Positions 3,395 through 7,818 of a DNA stretch of 8,699 bases are shown here, piece after piece. Source of the stretch: Nitrospinae bacterium RIFCSPLOWO2_12_FULL_45_22. Lineage in GTDB: Bacteria > 2-12-FULL-45-22. The translations under genes and the position numbers were made by a program. Below the pieces are notes generated by a model. The model ran no database searches and had not been told where the DNA came from. It saw only the letters and a program-made list of their open reading frames with translations. Numbering within the stretch: position 1 is the stretch's first letter; every line of letters starts with the position of its first letter. The DNA is taken from NCBI GenBank assembly GCA_001803565.1, contig MHDQ01000042.1, positions 1 to 8,699 on the forward strand. The letters are read 5' to 3'.

Positions 3395-6300
3395 ATGACA
3401 ATTTCGGTCAAAGACAAGGATTTAAGTCAATTTAAGCTTCAGATTAAAAGAGATAATGGCAGATACGCCGTTGTCTCTTCCGCAAGCGGTTTTGAAGCGG
3501 AAAGATTTTTTCCTGATCAGGATGAAATCACTAGAATTATGAAGCGTTCCAGGCTGATAGATTCTTTATTAATAAACCCCACCGCCCATCGGTTTACAAC
3601 TGAATTTATAGAGATAGGCAGTGAGATTTATGGGCTATTCCTGAGACCATTCAGCAAACTTGAAGAATTTATAAACTACTCTATCTCCCAAAACAGCGCT
3701 ATCCTGATAAACATCCAGACAAATGACCATGATATAAGCCGTCTGCCCTGGGAGCTTTTATATTCTCCTGAATATCAATTCATAGCCACATCCCCACGAT
3801 TTCAGATTATACGAACTATTGAGGATAGCGGCGCTCATAGCAGAGAGCTTTCCGCAGGTCCGCTCAGGATCTTGTTTATGGCATGCTCGCCGGATGGGAC
3901 AGAGCCGTTATTAAATTATGAGAAGGAAGAGGAGATAATCCTCAATGCCGTAGCTGACCTTAAGAGAAAAAAAGAGCTGGAGATAGACATTGCCGAAGGG
4001 GGGACATTAGAAGAGTTAAAAGAGATGCTAGCAAAGAAAGCGTACCATGTCGTCCACCTCTCAGGCCATGGGTATTATGACGAACAACAGAATACCGGCT
4101 ACCTGAGCATGGAAAATGAATCAGGGACTGAAAAAAAGGTAAGTGCAAAGGAGCTTGCAGACACTCTTATCGGATACGCATCCATTCGTTTATTATTCCT
4201 GAGCGCCTGCCAATCAGGAAGAGAAGAGGCGCCAAACACTGGGTTTGCATGCTCCCTTATATCAAACGGCATTCCGATGGTCATTGGAATGAAACAGGCC
4301 GTTAGCGATTATGCCGCTTCATTTATGGAAGAATCATTCTATAGACACCTGACATTAAAAAGGTCTGTTTCTCATGCATTTCAGTTATCGAGAGAAGAGT
4401 TTGCAAAAAAACATAGTGGCAACTTCCAGTGGGCTATCCCTGCAATATTTAGCAGAGTTGAGGATACGTCAATAGTCGATTGGACTAAACCGTTAATCCC
4501 CATTAAAGAGAGGGAGACTTCCATTATCCTTTATGGTGGGGTAGAACATTTAAAAGAGGGTTTTAGAGGGAGGCGCAGAGAATTACGGGAATATCTAAAA
4601 ATACTAAGAGGAGGACCGCCATCGACAATATGTATAACAGGGGCAGGGGGGGTAGGTAAATCAACCCTGGCTAGCAGGCTGACCGATAGGCTCCACAAAT
4701 CCGGGTACATGGTTATCCCATTAAAGGGCGAAATAACACCTGATAGATTCATACAAGAGACCATCAACACACTGGTTGCCGAAAAAGAATGGGAGCATCT
4801 GGAAATCTTAAAGAGATTGGTAGATTACAATGAAAAGATCATATACATAATATCCAACATATTAGGAACAAGAGAGACCATCTACCTCCTGGATAATTTT
4901 GAAGACAACCTGAAACAGTCTGCAAGATTTAGAGAATTTAAAAATCCATTCTGGGAGGCATCTTTCAAGACTATATTAGAGCAACTCCCGCACACCTGCT
5001 CAAGGATGCTGATTACCTGTAGATATACTATCCCCCGCATTCCAGAAAACCTTTTATTCCAGAGGCCTTTAAAAGAGATGTCTGAAGGAGAGGCAAGGAA
5101 GCTTATGATATTCAATAAAGATTATGCAGGGATAGACCTAAAACAGATAAGAGAGGTCTATCAAGCAATAGGCGGGAACCCAAAGGCAATAAAGGAGTTA
5201 GGAAGGCTTCTATATAAAGGAGATATTACCTGGGAATCTTTAAAAGAAAAACTGGGAAAGGTAACAAAAGAGATGCGGGAATTCACCATCTTTGAACAGC
5301 TTTACAACTTTCTAAGCAGGGAAGAACAGGGATTTTTCCGCAGGGTCTCGGTATATCGGGGGCCCGTGGGATTAGATGGGATAAAGGTTCAAGAACCAGA
5401 TGATTCTAAGGCAAAAGATTATATAAAGAGATTGGTAGACTACAGCCTGCTCCAGCAATATGAGGATAATATCTATGCCAGAGAATATTATCAGGTACAC
5501 CTGCTAAACCGGGAGAATATCAGGCAAGAGTGGTGGCAGGAAGGAGAGAAAGAAAAGGCACACCAGAATGCAGCAGGATATTATCTACGTTTTGAAGATA
5601 AGCGTTTTAGGATAGAGAGTCTATCTAATGCGGTCTATCAACTTAGGTCCGGGAAAATGTATAATCAGATGGCAGAATTGATTACTAAGTATGCAAACCA
5701 GTTGATATTAAAGGGCTTTTGGGATGAAGGCATCTATCTCCATCAGTCTATCCTGGAAGAAAAAGGCTCAGTTGAGAAGAGGTTTTCAGGGATTGCCTAC
5801 AACAATATTGGAGGAATCTATGACAGCAAAGGCGAGTGGGACAAGGCCTTAGAATATTATCTTAAGGCTGAGGAGATATTGATTGAAGTGGGTGACACGG
5901 CCGGTTTAGGGTCTACTTACAATAATATTGGATTAATCTATTCAAAGAAAGGCGATTGGGACAGGGCCTTGCAATACTATCTTGAGGCGGAAAAGATATC
6001 GATTGAAGTGGGAGACAGGGCAGGTTTAGCTCCTACATACAACAATATTGGAAGAATCTATGATAACAAAGGCGATTGGGACAAGGCCTTGCAATACTAT
6101 CATAAGGTTGAAAAGATAAGTATTGAAGTGGGAGACAGGGCAGGTTTAGCCACGACTTACAACAATATTGGATTAATCTATCATAACAAAGGCGAGCAGG
6201 ACAGGGCCTTAGAATATTATCTTAAGGCTGAAAAGATATTGATTGAAGTAGAAGACCGAGTAGGTTTAGCTCGCACTTACAACAATATTGGATCAATCTA

Positions 6301-6847
6301 TTCCGAAAAAGGAGAGAGGGACAAAGCCTTAGAAAAATTTCTTGAGGTTGAAAAGATAAGTATTGAAGTGGGAGACAGGGCAGGTTTAGCCACGACTTAC
6401 AACAATATTGGATTAATCTATTATAACAAAGGCGTATGGGACAGGGCCTTGCAGTACTATCTTAAGGCTGAAAAGATATTGATTGAAGTAGGCGACAGGG
6501 CAGGGTTGGGGACGACTTACAACAATATTGGAGGAATCTATTCCAAGAAAGGCGTATGGGACAGGGCCTTGCAGTACTATCTTAAGGCTGAAAAGATATT
6601 GATTGAAGTAGGCGACAGGGCAGGGTTGGCCGTTACCTATTTCAACACCGGTGCAAGCTATTTAAATAAAAATAATAAGGAAAAGGGAGATAGTTACATC
6701 GTCCTTGCAGGATATATTGCCATAACCCTCGGCATGAAGCATGAGCTTTCCCAAATGCGATGTGCATTAGAACCTATAATTAAAGAGATAGGTGAAGAAG
6801 GGTTTATGGAGATCGGAAAAAGACTTTATGAAAGCAAAAAATTATAA
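3395..6847 (+). CDS. CHAT protease - STAND NTPase - TPR repeat protein
   Basis: The protein has 1150 residues in three parts. (1) A CHAT (caspase HetF-associated with TPRs) domain spans about 105-345. It has the entry motif LPWELLY (117-123), the catalytic His in HLSGHG (His225) and the catalytic Cys in SACQSG (Cys272), so the dyad is intact and the protein should be an active cysteine endopeptidase. (2) A STAND/NB-ARC-type NTPase spans about 385-650. It has Walker A GAGGVGKST (416-424), Walker B IYLLDNFED with Asp500, an ITCR motif (Arg543) and GGNPKAI (593), followed by a winged-helix-like segment. (3) A helical linker precedes seven 40-residue TPR units (802-1081) and a degenerate eighth. 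STAND proteins of this layout are thought to be cytoplasmic switches: the repeats sense a trigger, the NTPase oligomerises and the protease is released. The ATG at 3395 has AAGG directly against it, a poor ribosome site. The frame is open back to a stop at 3305 but offers no better start. It leads a three-gene operon. Confidence 0.93.
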   Translation: MTISVKDKDLSQFKLQIKRDNGRYAVVSSASGFEAERFFPDQDEITRIMKRSRLIDSLLINPTAHRFTTEFIEIGSEIYGLFLRPFSKLEEFINYSISQNSAILINIQTNDHDISRLPWELLYSPEYQFIATSPRFQIIRTIEDSGAHSRELSAGPLRILFMACSPDGTEPLLNYEKEEEIILNAVADLKRKKELEIDIAEGGTLEELKEMLAKKAYHVVHLSGHGYYDEQQNTGYLSMENESGTEKKVSAKELADTLIGYASIRLLFLSACQSGREEAPNTGFACSLISNGIPMVIGMKQAVSDYAASFMEESFYRHLTLKRSVSHAFQLSREEFAKKHSGNFQWAIPAIFSRVEDTSIVDWTKPLIPIKERETSIILYGGVEHLKEGFRGRRRELREYLKILRGGPPSTICITGAGGVGKSTLASRLTDRLHKSGYMVIPLKGEITPDRFIQETINTLVAEKEWEHLEILKRLVDYNEKIIYIISNILGTRETIYLLDNFEDNLKQSARFREFKNPFWEASFKTILEQLPHTCSRMLITCRYTIPRIPENLLFQRPLKEMSEGEARKLMIFNKDYAGIDLKQIREVYQAIGGNPKAIKELGRLLYKGDITWESLKEKLGKVTKEMREFTIFEQLYNFLSREEQGFFRRVSVYRGPVGLDGIKVQEPDDSKAKDYIKRLVDYSLLQQYEDNIYAREYYQVHLLNRENIRQEWWQEGEKEKAHQNAAGYYLRFEDKRFRIESLSNAVYQLRSGKMYNQMAELITKYANQLILKGFWDEGIYLHQSILEEKGSVEKRFSGIAYNNIGGIYDSKGEWDKALEYYLKAEEILIEVGDTAGLGSTYNNIGLIYSKKGDWDRALQYYLEAEKISIEVGDRAGLAPTYNNIGRIYDNKGDWDKALQYYHKVEKISIEVGDRAGLATTYNNIGLIYHNKGEQDRALEYYLKAEKILIEVEDRVGLARTYNNIGSIYSEKGERDKALEKFLEVEKISIEVGDRAGLATTYNNIGLIYYNKGVWDRALQYYLKAEKILIEVGDRAGLGTTYNNIGGIYSKKGVWDRALQYYLKAEKILIEVGDRAGLAVTYFNTGASYLNKNNKEKGDSYIVLAGYIAITLGMKHELSQMRCALEPIIKEIGEEGFMEIGKRLYESKKL
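5798..6637 (+). repeat. Seven tandem 120-bp units encoding TPR repeats
   Basis: Exactly seven in-frame 120-base units each encode 40 residues, starting at YNNIG and carrying the pattern IY-x3-G-x3-AL-x-YY-x-KAEKI-x-IEVGDRAGLA-x-T. A decayed eighth begins at 6638 (YFNTGASY). The 40-residue period is of the kinesin-light-chain/TPR_12 type. Units 6 and 7 share 82 identical bases (6428-6509 and 6548-6629). The 3-4 and 5-6 boundaries share 77 identical bases (6105-6181 and 6345-6421). This points to recent duplication or conversion within the array. Confidence 0.95.
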
Positions 6848-6857
6848 CCCCAAAAAA

Positions 6858-6865
6858 GAGAGGTG
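6858..6865 (+). promoter_or_regulatory. Ribosome binding site deciding the start of the winged-helix gene
   Basis: GAGAGGTG ends six bases before the ATG at 6872. The upstream in-frame GTG at 6863 lies inside this site and so has no ribosome site of its own. The ATG is therefore the better start. Confidence 0.7.
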
Positions 6866-6871
6866 TGGATC

Positions 6872-7189
6872 ATGAAAGATTTAAAAGAGTTTTCTCTGTC
6901 ATATTATCTTGACGAACTAAAGAGGCGAGAGGGAAAAAAGGCACAAGAGGAGGTATCAGCGGCCTTGTCTGCTACCACTGTCAGCATAGAGGTGCTAAAG
7001 GCCATAAAAGAGGCGAAAGATCACAAACTTCCCCTTACAACCCTTGCCAGAAAGGTCAATCTAAAGATAGCCCCCTGCCAGGAGGTCTGCGAACATCTGA
7101 GGGATGAGGGGTTGATAGAGATAGAACCAGATCAAGAGACAGGGAATGACTGGATCAAACTATCAGATAAAGGCATGGGTTTACTATGA
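6872..7189 (+). CDS. Small winged-helix protein of the CHAT operon
   Basis: The protein has 105 residues from the ATG chosen for its well-spaced ribosome site; starting at GTG 6863 would add three. Residues 1-32 form a charged N-terminal helix region. Residues 37-49 (VSIEVLKAIKEAK), 55-62 (LTTLARKV) and 67-81 fit the three helices of a winged helix-turn-helix. The EVCEHLRDEGLIE stretch (71-83) and the final WIKLSDKGMGLL (94-105) match the recognition helix and wing typical of MarR/PadR-like regulators. I recognise the fold, not a family. It starts 24 bases after the CHAT gene stop and its stop overlaps the next start (ATGA), so all three genes are probably one transcript. It may regulate the operon, or serve as a small adaptor between the CHAT-STAND protein and the membrane partner. 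Winged-helix domains in STAND systems can also bind protein. Confidence 0.8.
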   Translation: MKDLKEFSLSYYLDELKRREGKKAQEEVSAALSATTVSIEVLKAIKEAKDHKLPLTTLARKVNLKIAPCQEVCEHLRDEGLIEIEPDQETGNDWIKLSDKGMGLL

Positions 7190-7818
7190 CCTCCGCCTAT
7201 CTGATAACTATATTCTTGAGTCTTATGGTTGCCTCGGCTGAGCTGGTCACAAAGTTTAAAGACGAGCCTTTTGCCATCCTTACAAAAAATATAACCGCAT
7301 GGTTTTATATCCTTTTTAATATCTTAATCGCCTCTATATCTCTATATCTTCTTACCAAAACCGGTTTCTTTGGAAATACCGAATACGATCAGATAAAGGC
7401 GGCATTCACGGCGGGTTTTGGTTCTACAATCCTGATGCGGTCAAAGTTTTTTAAGGTAAGGATCAATGGAAAGGAGGCGGCAATTGGTCCGGAAATAATC
7501 ATCAATATATTCCTTGAGACACTGGAAAAGATGATAGACAGGGATAGGGCGTTGGAACGGAAAAATATAGTAGAAAAATATATGGCGGATATAGATTTTG
7601 ACAAGACAAAAGATTATGTAGTAACTACAATCATAGCCTCTCTCCAGAATGCTTCCCCTGAAACAACCAGGAAATTAATGGATGACACAGATAAGATTGC
7701 TATATCGTCAATGGGCGATATAGAAAAGAGCTTTGCCCTCGGCTATTTAATACTGGATATCATGGGTGAGAAATTTTTAAAGGGGCTTTTTTATAATAAG
7801 GAAAGATTTATACGATAA
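7186..7818 (+). CDS. Membrane protein with a soluble C-terminal domain, last gene of the CHAT operon
   Basis: The protein has 210 residues. Hydrophobic segments lie at 4-21 and 38-57, both long enough to cross the membrane. A shorter one (72-84, AAFTAGFGSTILM) could be a re-entrant or third segment. About 125 mostly soluble, helical residues follow, containing IGPEIIINIFLETLEK and a charged stretch MIDRDRALERKNIVEKY. The block GFGSTILMRSKFF followed by IGPE looks conserved in the way family motifs do. I have an impression of similar small membrane proteins near STAND-type genes but cannot name a family. The start overlaps the winged-helix stop in ATGA, so the two proteins are likely made in linked amounts. 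Possible roles are a membrane effector or pore, a substrate cut by the CHAT protease, or a membrane anchor for the complex. None is shown by the sequence. Confidence 0.82.
   Translation: MTSAYLITIFLSLMVASAELVTKFKDEPFAILTKNITAWFYILFNILIASISLYLLTKTGFFGNTEYDQIKAAFTAGFGSTILMRSKFFKVRINGKEAAIGPEIIINIFLETLEKMIDRDRALERKNIVEKYMADIDFDKTKDYVVTTIIASLQNASPETTRKLMDDTDKIAISSMGDIEKSFALGYLILDIMGEKFLKGLFYNKERFIR

Follow-up and report, generated by a model that had tools for sequence, protein, structure and literature searches.

A conserved winged-helix and membrane protein gene pair, optionally joined by a CHAT-STAND-TPR protease gene, as a candidate bacterial conflict cassette

CHAT-STAND-TPR genes are common in complex bacteria, and we know of substrates for few of them. 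The stretch of DNA analysed here (8,699 nucleotides, referred to as the window) carries such a gene immediately ahead of two small genes, which raises the question whether the three form a functional unit in which the protease acts on a neighbour's product. A conserved and repeatedly co-located gene pair would supply CHAT-STAND-TPR proteins with named candidate partners and offer a small testable system. The window represents an entire contig of a 3.67-Mb genome that is about 85% complete, and its list of open reading frames contains the three genes named in the initial annotation, with the following features:

3395..6847, forward strand: P1, a CHAT-STAND-TPR protein of 1150 amino acids (open reading frame, Pfam and motifs)
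P1 residues ~111-349: predicted CHAT caspase-like protease domain with H225 and C272
P1 Walker A at residue 416 and Walker B at 497: P-loop NTPase, followed by a C-terminal TPR array
5798..6631, forward strand: tandem repeat coding for TPRs, 6.9 copies of a 120-bp unit with 81% match (repeat analysis)
6872..7189, forward strand: P2, a 105-amino-acid winged-helix protein (HTH_24 match, AlphaFold2 model and P2 profile)
7186..7818, forward strand: P3, a 210-amino-acid membrane protein whose gene overlaps that of P2 by ATGA at 7186-7189
P3 residues: TM1 2-23, TM2 36-59, third helix 66-84, beta-hairpin 89-100, helical domain 102-210 (predicted to be cytosolic)

By profile and catalytic dyad, P1 is a predicted CHAT protease. 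Its score against the Pfam CHAT model (PF12770; E 4.8e-28, 98.9 bits) exceeds the curated cut-off of 24, and the proposed dyad is found in the motifs HLSGHG (H225) and SACQSG (C272). The NTPase likewise retains the two Walker motifs ascribed to it, GAGGVGKST at 416 and YLLDNFED at 497, and matches the Pfam models ATPase_2 (2.2e-7) and AAA_16 (1.1e-6), both slightly below cut-off; this P-loop domain sits between the effector and the repeat sensor, the arrangement characteristic of STAND proteins. The TPR array is recovered by TPR_12 (E 3.1e-57) and constitutes a probable sensor, which has probably expanded recently since its 6.9 repeat copies still match at 81%. The component domains of P1 are thus of already known kinds. 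On the 5' side of the cassette, at 2149-2674 of the window, lie overlapping DUF4160 and DUF2442 genes, which make up a common accessory pair.

P2 follows P1 on the same strand. Its start was placed at the ATG at 6872, correcting the mechanically assigned GTG at 6863, and with this start the 24-base gap given for the two genes is right. The predicted winged helix of P2 is weak but real, as the Pfam HTH_24 match has an E-value of 8.9e-4 and the AlphaFold2 model retrieves MarR/ArsR-like folds in Foldseek with a probability of 1.00. A conserved N-terminal motif of the aromatic-L/M-E type reads SLSYYLDEL in the window protein, and most members of the P2 family carry an S/T-F-x-x-Y/F-L/M-E-like version of it in a poorly ordered tail. 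Furthermore, P2 homologues are mostly neutral or acidic (pI range 4.7-10.1; pI 5.4 and net charge -3 for window P2). The prevalence of this motif together with the charge of most homologues suggests that P2 is closer to an adaptor than to a DNA-binding regulator, and the regulator role first assigned to the winged helix finds no support. P2 resembles no antitoxin family above a cut-off, and its matches to PADLOC models are weak and confined to the winged-helix parts of CARF and III-A proteins.

The AlphaFold2 model of P3, computed from an alignment of 11 homologues, is confident (mean pLDDT 89). In every one of the 11 homologues the first two helices are strongly hydrophobic, and the third helix is conserved and moderately hydrophobic, ending with a conserved R-S/T; the near-invariant residues of the family include E19, N45, G79 and R85. 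Across the alignment, the first loop (joining helices 1 and 2) is either neutral or positively charged, whereas the second (joining helices 2 and 3) is neutral or negative in most homologues and has a long acidic insert in the planctomycete homologue L100; the segment that follows helix 3 is positive in nearly every case. As this charge pattern fits a three-pass topology, P3 probably crosses the membrane three times with its C-terminal domain in the cytoplasm, so that the two strong transmembrane helices of the initial annotation stand while the total of two is a probable undercount. P3 matches no family in Pfam, NCBIfam, PADLOC or PHROGs, and structure searches yielded nothing significant, the matches being to helix bundles of GPCR and TRP proteins and, in the viral library, to holins. 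It has no Pfam match or significant fold match to gasdermins either. In view of this lack of a structural match, a membrane activity of P3 is suggested by hydropathy alone. No description of the P2-P3 family was found in the literature outside subscription papers, and the P3 family appears to be undescribed.

As a single-protein query against viral contigs, genome contigs and plasmids, P3 retrieved nothing; its family surfaced only once the search was extended to whole genomes with CHAT-STAND relatives, with P3 in 2/33 and then 2/42 genomes of P1 relatives, one genome of the latter set holding two copies. In phylum background samples, which exclude the centre genomes, P3 was absent from Nitrospirota (0/197), Planctomycetota (0/293) and Cyanobacteria (0/243) and present in Acidobacteriota (4/326) and Actinomycetota (1/325, a false hit having been removed). 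The resulting 4 of 75 CHAT-STAND genomes versus 5 of about 1,385 others point to an enrichment that is suggestive only, because genome size and phylum are uncontrolled. A further candidate homologue (L124 in genome G1311, a partial match at E 1.3e-4) proved to be a false positive on inspection of its open reading frame.

In total, 24 intact P3 members from at least five phyla were found. A P2-type winged-helix gene lies immediately 5' of P3 at 22 of these 24 loci (the window, L100, L101, L107, L119, L120, L121, L123 and all 14 intact Bryobacterales loci), and a different small open reading frame occupies this position in the two exceptions, L109 and L122. The P2 profile was built from nine loci, leaving 13 Bryobacterales loci as an independent test, and all 13 match it with E-values of about 1e-5 to 5e-20. 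The regularity with which a P2-type gene precedes P3 identifies P2-P3 as a conserved two-gene core. At the actinobacterial locus (L123:1-18001) the pair lies near genes for a protein kinase, a conjugation-type ATPase and a restriction-type protein.

A CHAT-STAND-TPR gene stands beside the pair at 8 of the 24 intact loci, a count that includes the window, which was itself selected for carrying the protease. Outside Bryobacterales, none of the nine other loci has a CHAT neighbour, so the pair can presumably work without P1. An early reading, formed when five of five unselected hits were free of CHAT, held that the pair is independent of CHAT, and it was overturned by a survey of Bryobacterales. 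This survey covered 257 genomes and was undertaken because of locus L108, where a CHAT-STAND-TPR gene lies head-to-head with the pair, so that one instance of the link was already known when the sample was chosen. Matches occurred in 20 of the 257 genomes. Among the 14 intact Bryobacterales pairs (L108, L151-L162 and L164), seven are immediately flanked by a CHAT-STAND-TPR gene, which is divergent at L108 and L151 and convergent with P3 at L153, L154, L157, L160 and L161. The motifs HFDGHG and NAC(Q/R)S are both present in six of these seven proteases and the P-loop in all seven, and Pfam confirmed CHAT, AAA and TPR domains in those that were scanned. In the L160 protease the first reading frame ends at 748 amino acids and resumes in another frame, and L159 retains a shortened protease remnant convergent with P3; at L159 and L162 the sequence ends soon after P3, leaving the far side partly out of view. 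Genome G788, with 19 CHAT matches, gives a chance of about 0.4% per pair and thus about 0.05 expected adjacencies in 14 loci compared with the seven seen, an arithmetic that assumes ~10,000 genes and loses weight through shared ancestry. The linkage of CHAT-STAND-TPR genes to the pair in Bryobacterales is non-random and far above chance.

Comparison of the Bryobacterales loci showed several flanking genes common to L108, L151 and L168 only, with no common flanking genes among the others apart from one distant match between L152 and L158. Since flanking genes are shared by these three loci alone, the trio appears to move as one unit and to sit at mostly different chromosomal sites. In the P3 tree, the label of having a CHAT gene next door must have changed four times or more across well-supported branches. 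The CHAT-STAND-TPR gene is therefore best described as a frequent but optional third gene, and the proposed three-gene unit is upheld in so far as it recurs in Bryobacterales, the constant element being P2-P3 (22/24) and the protease an option (8/24). The initial annotation had named a predominance of small-gene homologues without CHAT as evidence against itself; such a predominance exists by raw count and is contradicted by the strong non-random linkage.

The Bryobacterales proteases form one family (51-80% identical among themselves), and they share 20-24% identity with P1 over the CHAT and NTPase region and are separate from it in the tree. Window P3 groups with planctomycete L100 and not with Bryobacterales; at L100 a TPR protein is encoded upstream in the same orientation, of which the contig end leaves only the C-terminal part. 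Given an identity to P1 of just 20-24%, the association of protease and pair may have arisen more than once. Judged from these sequences, either the trio is ancient and its protease fast-changing, or CHAT-STAND genes joined the pair on more than one occasion.

One Bryobacterales locus bears on the role of the membrane part of P3:

L168:1075-2181, reverse strand: winged-helix gene followed by a gene for a TIR-P3 C-terminal fusion

L168, where no protease gene was seen next to the pair, occupies the L108/L151 chromosomal site, as judged by the same flanking gene (83-85% identical). Its winged-helix gene is followed by an intact gene for a 260-amino-acid protein that combines a TIR domain with the C-terminal domain of P3, the latter 50% identical to L108 P3 over 82 amino acids. 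The TIR half matches the PADLOC TIR-TM (CBASS) model with an E-value of 1.7e-51 and Pfam TIR_2 at 4.5e-5, below cut-off, and it provides the one convincing match of P2 or P3 homologues to defence-specific models. Although a single case, this replacement makes more likely an effector role of P3, which the initial annotation had proposed as one option for the membrane protein, and supports a swappable killing domain; by analogy with the PycTM/PycTIR exchange it argues for the membrane part as the effector and for the C-terminal domain as the coupling part. Six further Bryobacterales modules (L163, L165, L166, L167, L169 and L170) are broken by frameshifts, stops or deletions, which fits rapid gain and loss. 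Two of these decayed pairs, L166 and L167, retain pieces of the protease, and at L167 a deletion fuses the P3 N-terminus to the apparent TPR end of the protease gene.

In order to rationalise these observations, we propose, with a probability of roughly 0.48, that the window encodes a three-gene conflict cassette of the abortive-infection type in which P1 is the sensor-trigger protease, P2 an adaptor and P3 a membrane effector. According to this model, the TPR array of P1 would sense an invader or damage, whereupon the STAND NTPase would oligomerise and switch on the CHAT protease. Genes for CHAT substrates commonly lie close to that of the protease (PMC9729208), and because CHAT proteases tend to act on the products of their neighbours, P3 or P2 is the likely substrate of P1. 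The activated protease would act on one of these two proteins and thereby release the membrane activity of P3, which would kill or arrest the infected cell. Within P3, the N-terminal membrane domain of two or three helices would cause the damage and the cytosolic helical domain would couple it to control, and P2, a small winged-helix adaptor, would hold or organise P3. Elsewhere the pair would operate without the protease or with a TIR domain in place of the membrane domain. We infer the effector role and toxicity of P3, the cleavage of P3 or P2 by P1, and a phage or other invader as the trigger. A wider formulation, in which P2-P3 is a widespread but sparse immune module, swappable to TIR, that joined CHAT-STAND-TPR sensor-proteases more than once and is activated through their cleavage, is possible and put forward more tentatively. 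Should the cassette act as proposed, P3 would bring an uncharacterised membrane effector family into bacterial immunity, and bacteria would have a counterpart to protease-gated membrane cell death.

Alternatively, P2-P3 could be an independent module and P1 a chance neighbour in the window, given that accessory genes cluster. The nine protease-free loci outside Bryobacterales agree with this explanation, as does the membership of P1 in a large family: of its 80 nearest fetched relatives, none has P2 or P3 alongside by BLAST. The genome from which the window comes contains another CHAT-STAND-TPR protein of 1227 amino acids on contig C120 (L014:4223-10266), whose gene converges on a two-gene unit of the KAP-type P-loop NTPase kind and is also free of P2 and P3. 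Chance accounts poorly for the recurrence of the trio at half of the intact Bryobacterales loci, where it takes two arrangements and for the most part occupies different sites, and for the close spacing of the window genes on one strand, and we consider this explanation unlikely. A second possibility is that P3 anchors P2 at the membrane and that cleavage by P1 frees P2 to act on DNA as a transcription switch, following the logic of RseA-sigmaE or Csx30-CASP-sigma. The MarR/ArsR-like fold of P2 would suit such a switch, and there is a precedent in the TPR-CHAT protease Csx29, which cleaves Csx30 and so relieves the inhibition of a sigma factor (PMC10028731). The predominantly neutral or acidic character of P2 homologues speaks against DNA binding, and at L168 the TIR fusion accompanies P2 with no membrane anchor, contrary to a tether, which together render the switch improbable. 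Least probable is a toxin-antitoxin-like pair in which P2 restrains a membrane toxin P3 until P2 is lost through P1 or otherwise, for although the tight arrangement, in which the small gene comes first and overlaps the next by ATGA, the absence of P1 from most genomes with the pair, the many decayed Bryobacterales copies expected of a fast-turnover element and the TIR swap at a toxin position would all be in keeping with it, P2 resembles no known antitoxin family above a cut-off.

The proposed conflict cassette shares features with several known systems. The EACC1-caspase two-gene membrane conflict system (Kaur et al. 2020, PMC7159879) similarly combines a gene for a caspase-type protease, often with STAND or repeats, with one for a small membrane protein. 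EACC1 has a single transmembrane helix with short alpha+beta ends and is encoded by the 5' gene, whereas P3 has two or three transmembrane helices, a helical domain of ~110 amino acids, a 3' gene and a winged-helix partner, which sets it apart from EACC1. Pycsar exchanges PycTM and PycTIR (PMC11224242), one type of regulatory receptor bearing a killing domain that is a membrane domain or a TIR, as in the P3 family, where the shared domain is the C-terminal helical domain of P3; no pyrimidine cyclase or cyclic-nucleotide-binding domain occurs among the scanned open reading frames of the window. Type III-E Craspase (Csx29, Csx30 and a sigma factor) also pairs a CHAT and TPR protease with partners encoded next door (PMC9729208, PMC10028731). 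The domain order differs (CHAT-NTPase-TPR in P1, TPR-CHAT in Csx29), P2 and P3 match neither Csx30, Csx31 nor a sigma factor in the libraries searched, and the short 8.7-kb contig, the only sequence considered in this respect, has no open reading frame for a gRAMP/Cas7-11 effector. Bacterial gasdermin operons with CHAT or caspase-like proteases combine a protease with an adjoining membrane-acting partner, as proposed here, but P3 is a predicted helical integral membrane protein. The CBASS TIR-TM proteins are matched only by the TIR of L168, which is fused to the P3 C-terminal domain and not to a transmembrane segment.

Other CHAT-STAND genes are likewise adjoined by small proteins. Differing proteins with two or three transmembrane helices are encoded at L021:3676-4167, L024:6059-6487, L025:5131-5613 and L027:3762-4190, and such genes lie downstream of the CHAT-STAND gene in archaea and upstream in bacteria. 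These four have no BLAST similarity to P3, and no family scores above cut-off for them; CHAT-STAND genes may generally have a small membrane partner. EACC1-like small proteins with a glycine-rich hydrophobic segment stand beside CHAT-STAND genes of cyanobacteria and Azospirillum (L037:7346-7684, L050:7388-7714, L006:4392-4715 and L007:8423-8800), and small cysteine-rich, zinc-ribbon-like proteins are encoded immediately 5' of CHAT genes at L028:7595-7807 and L029:7493-7696.
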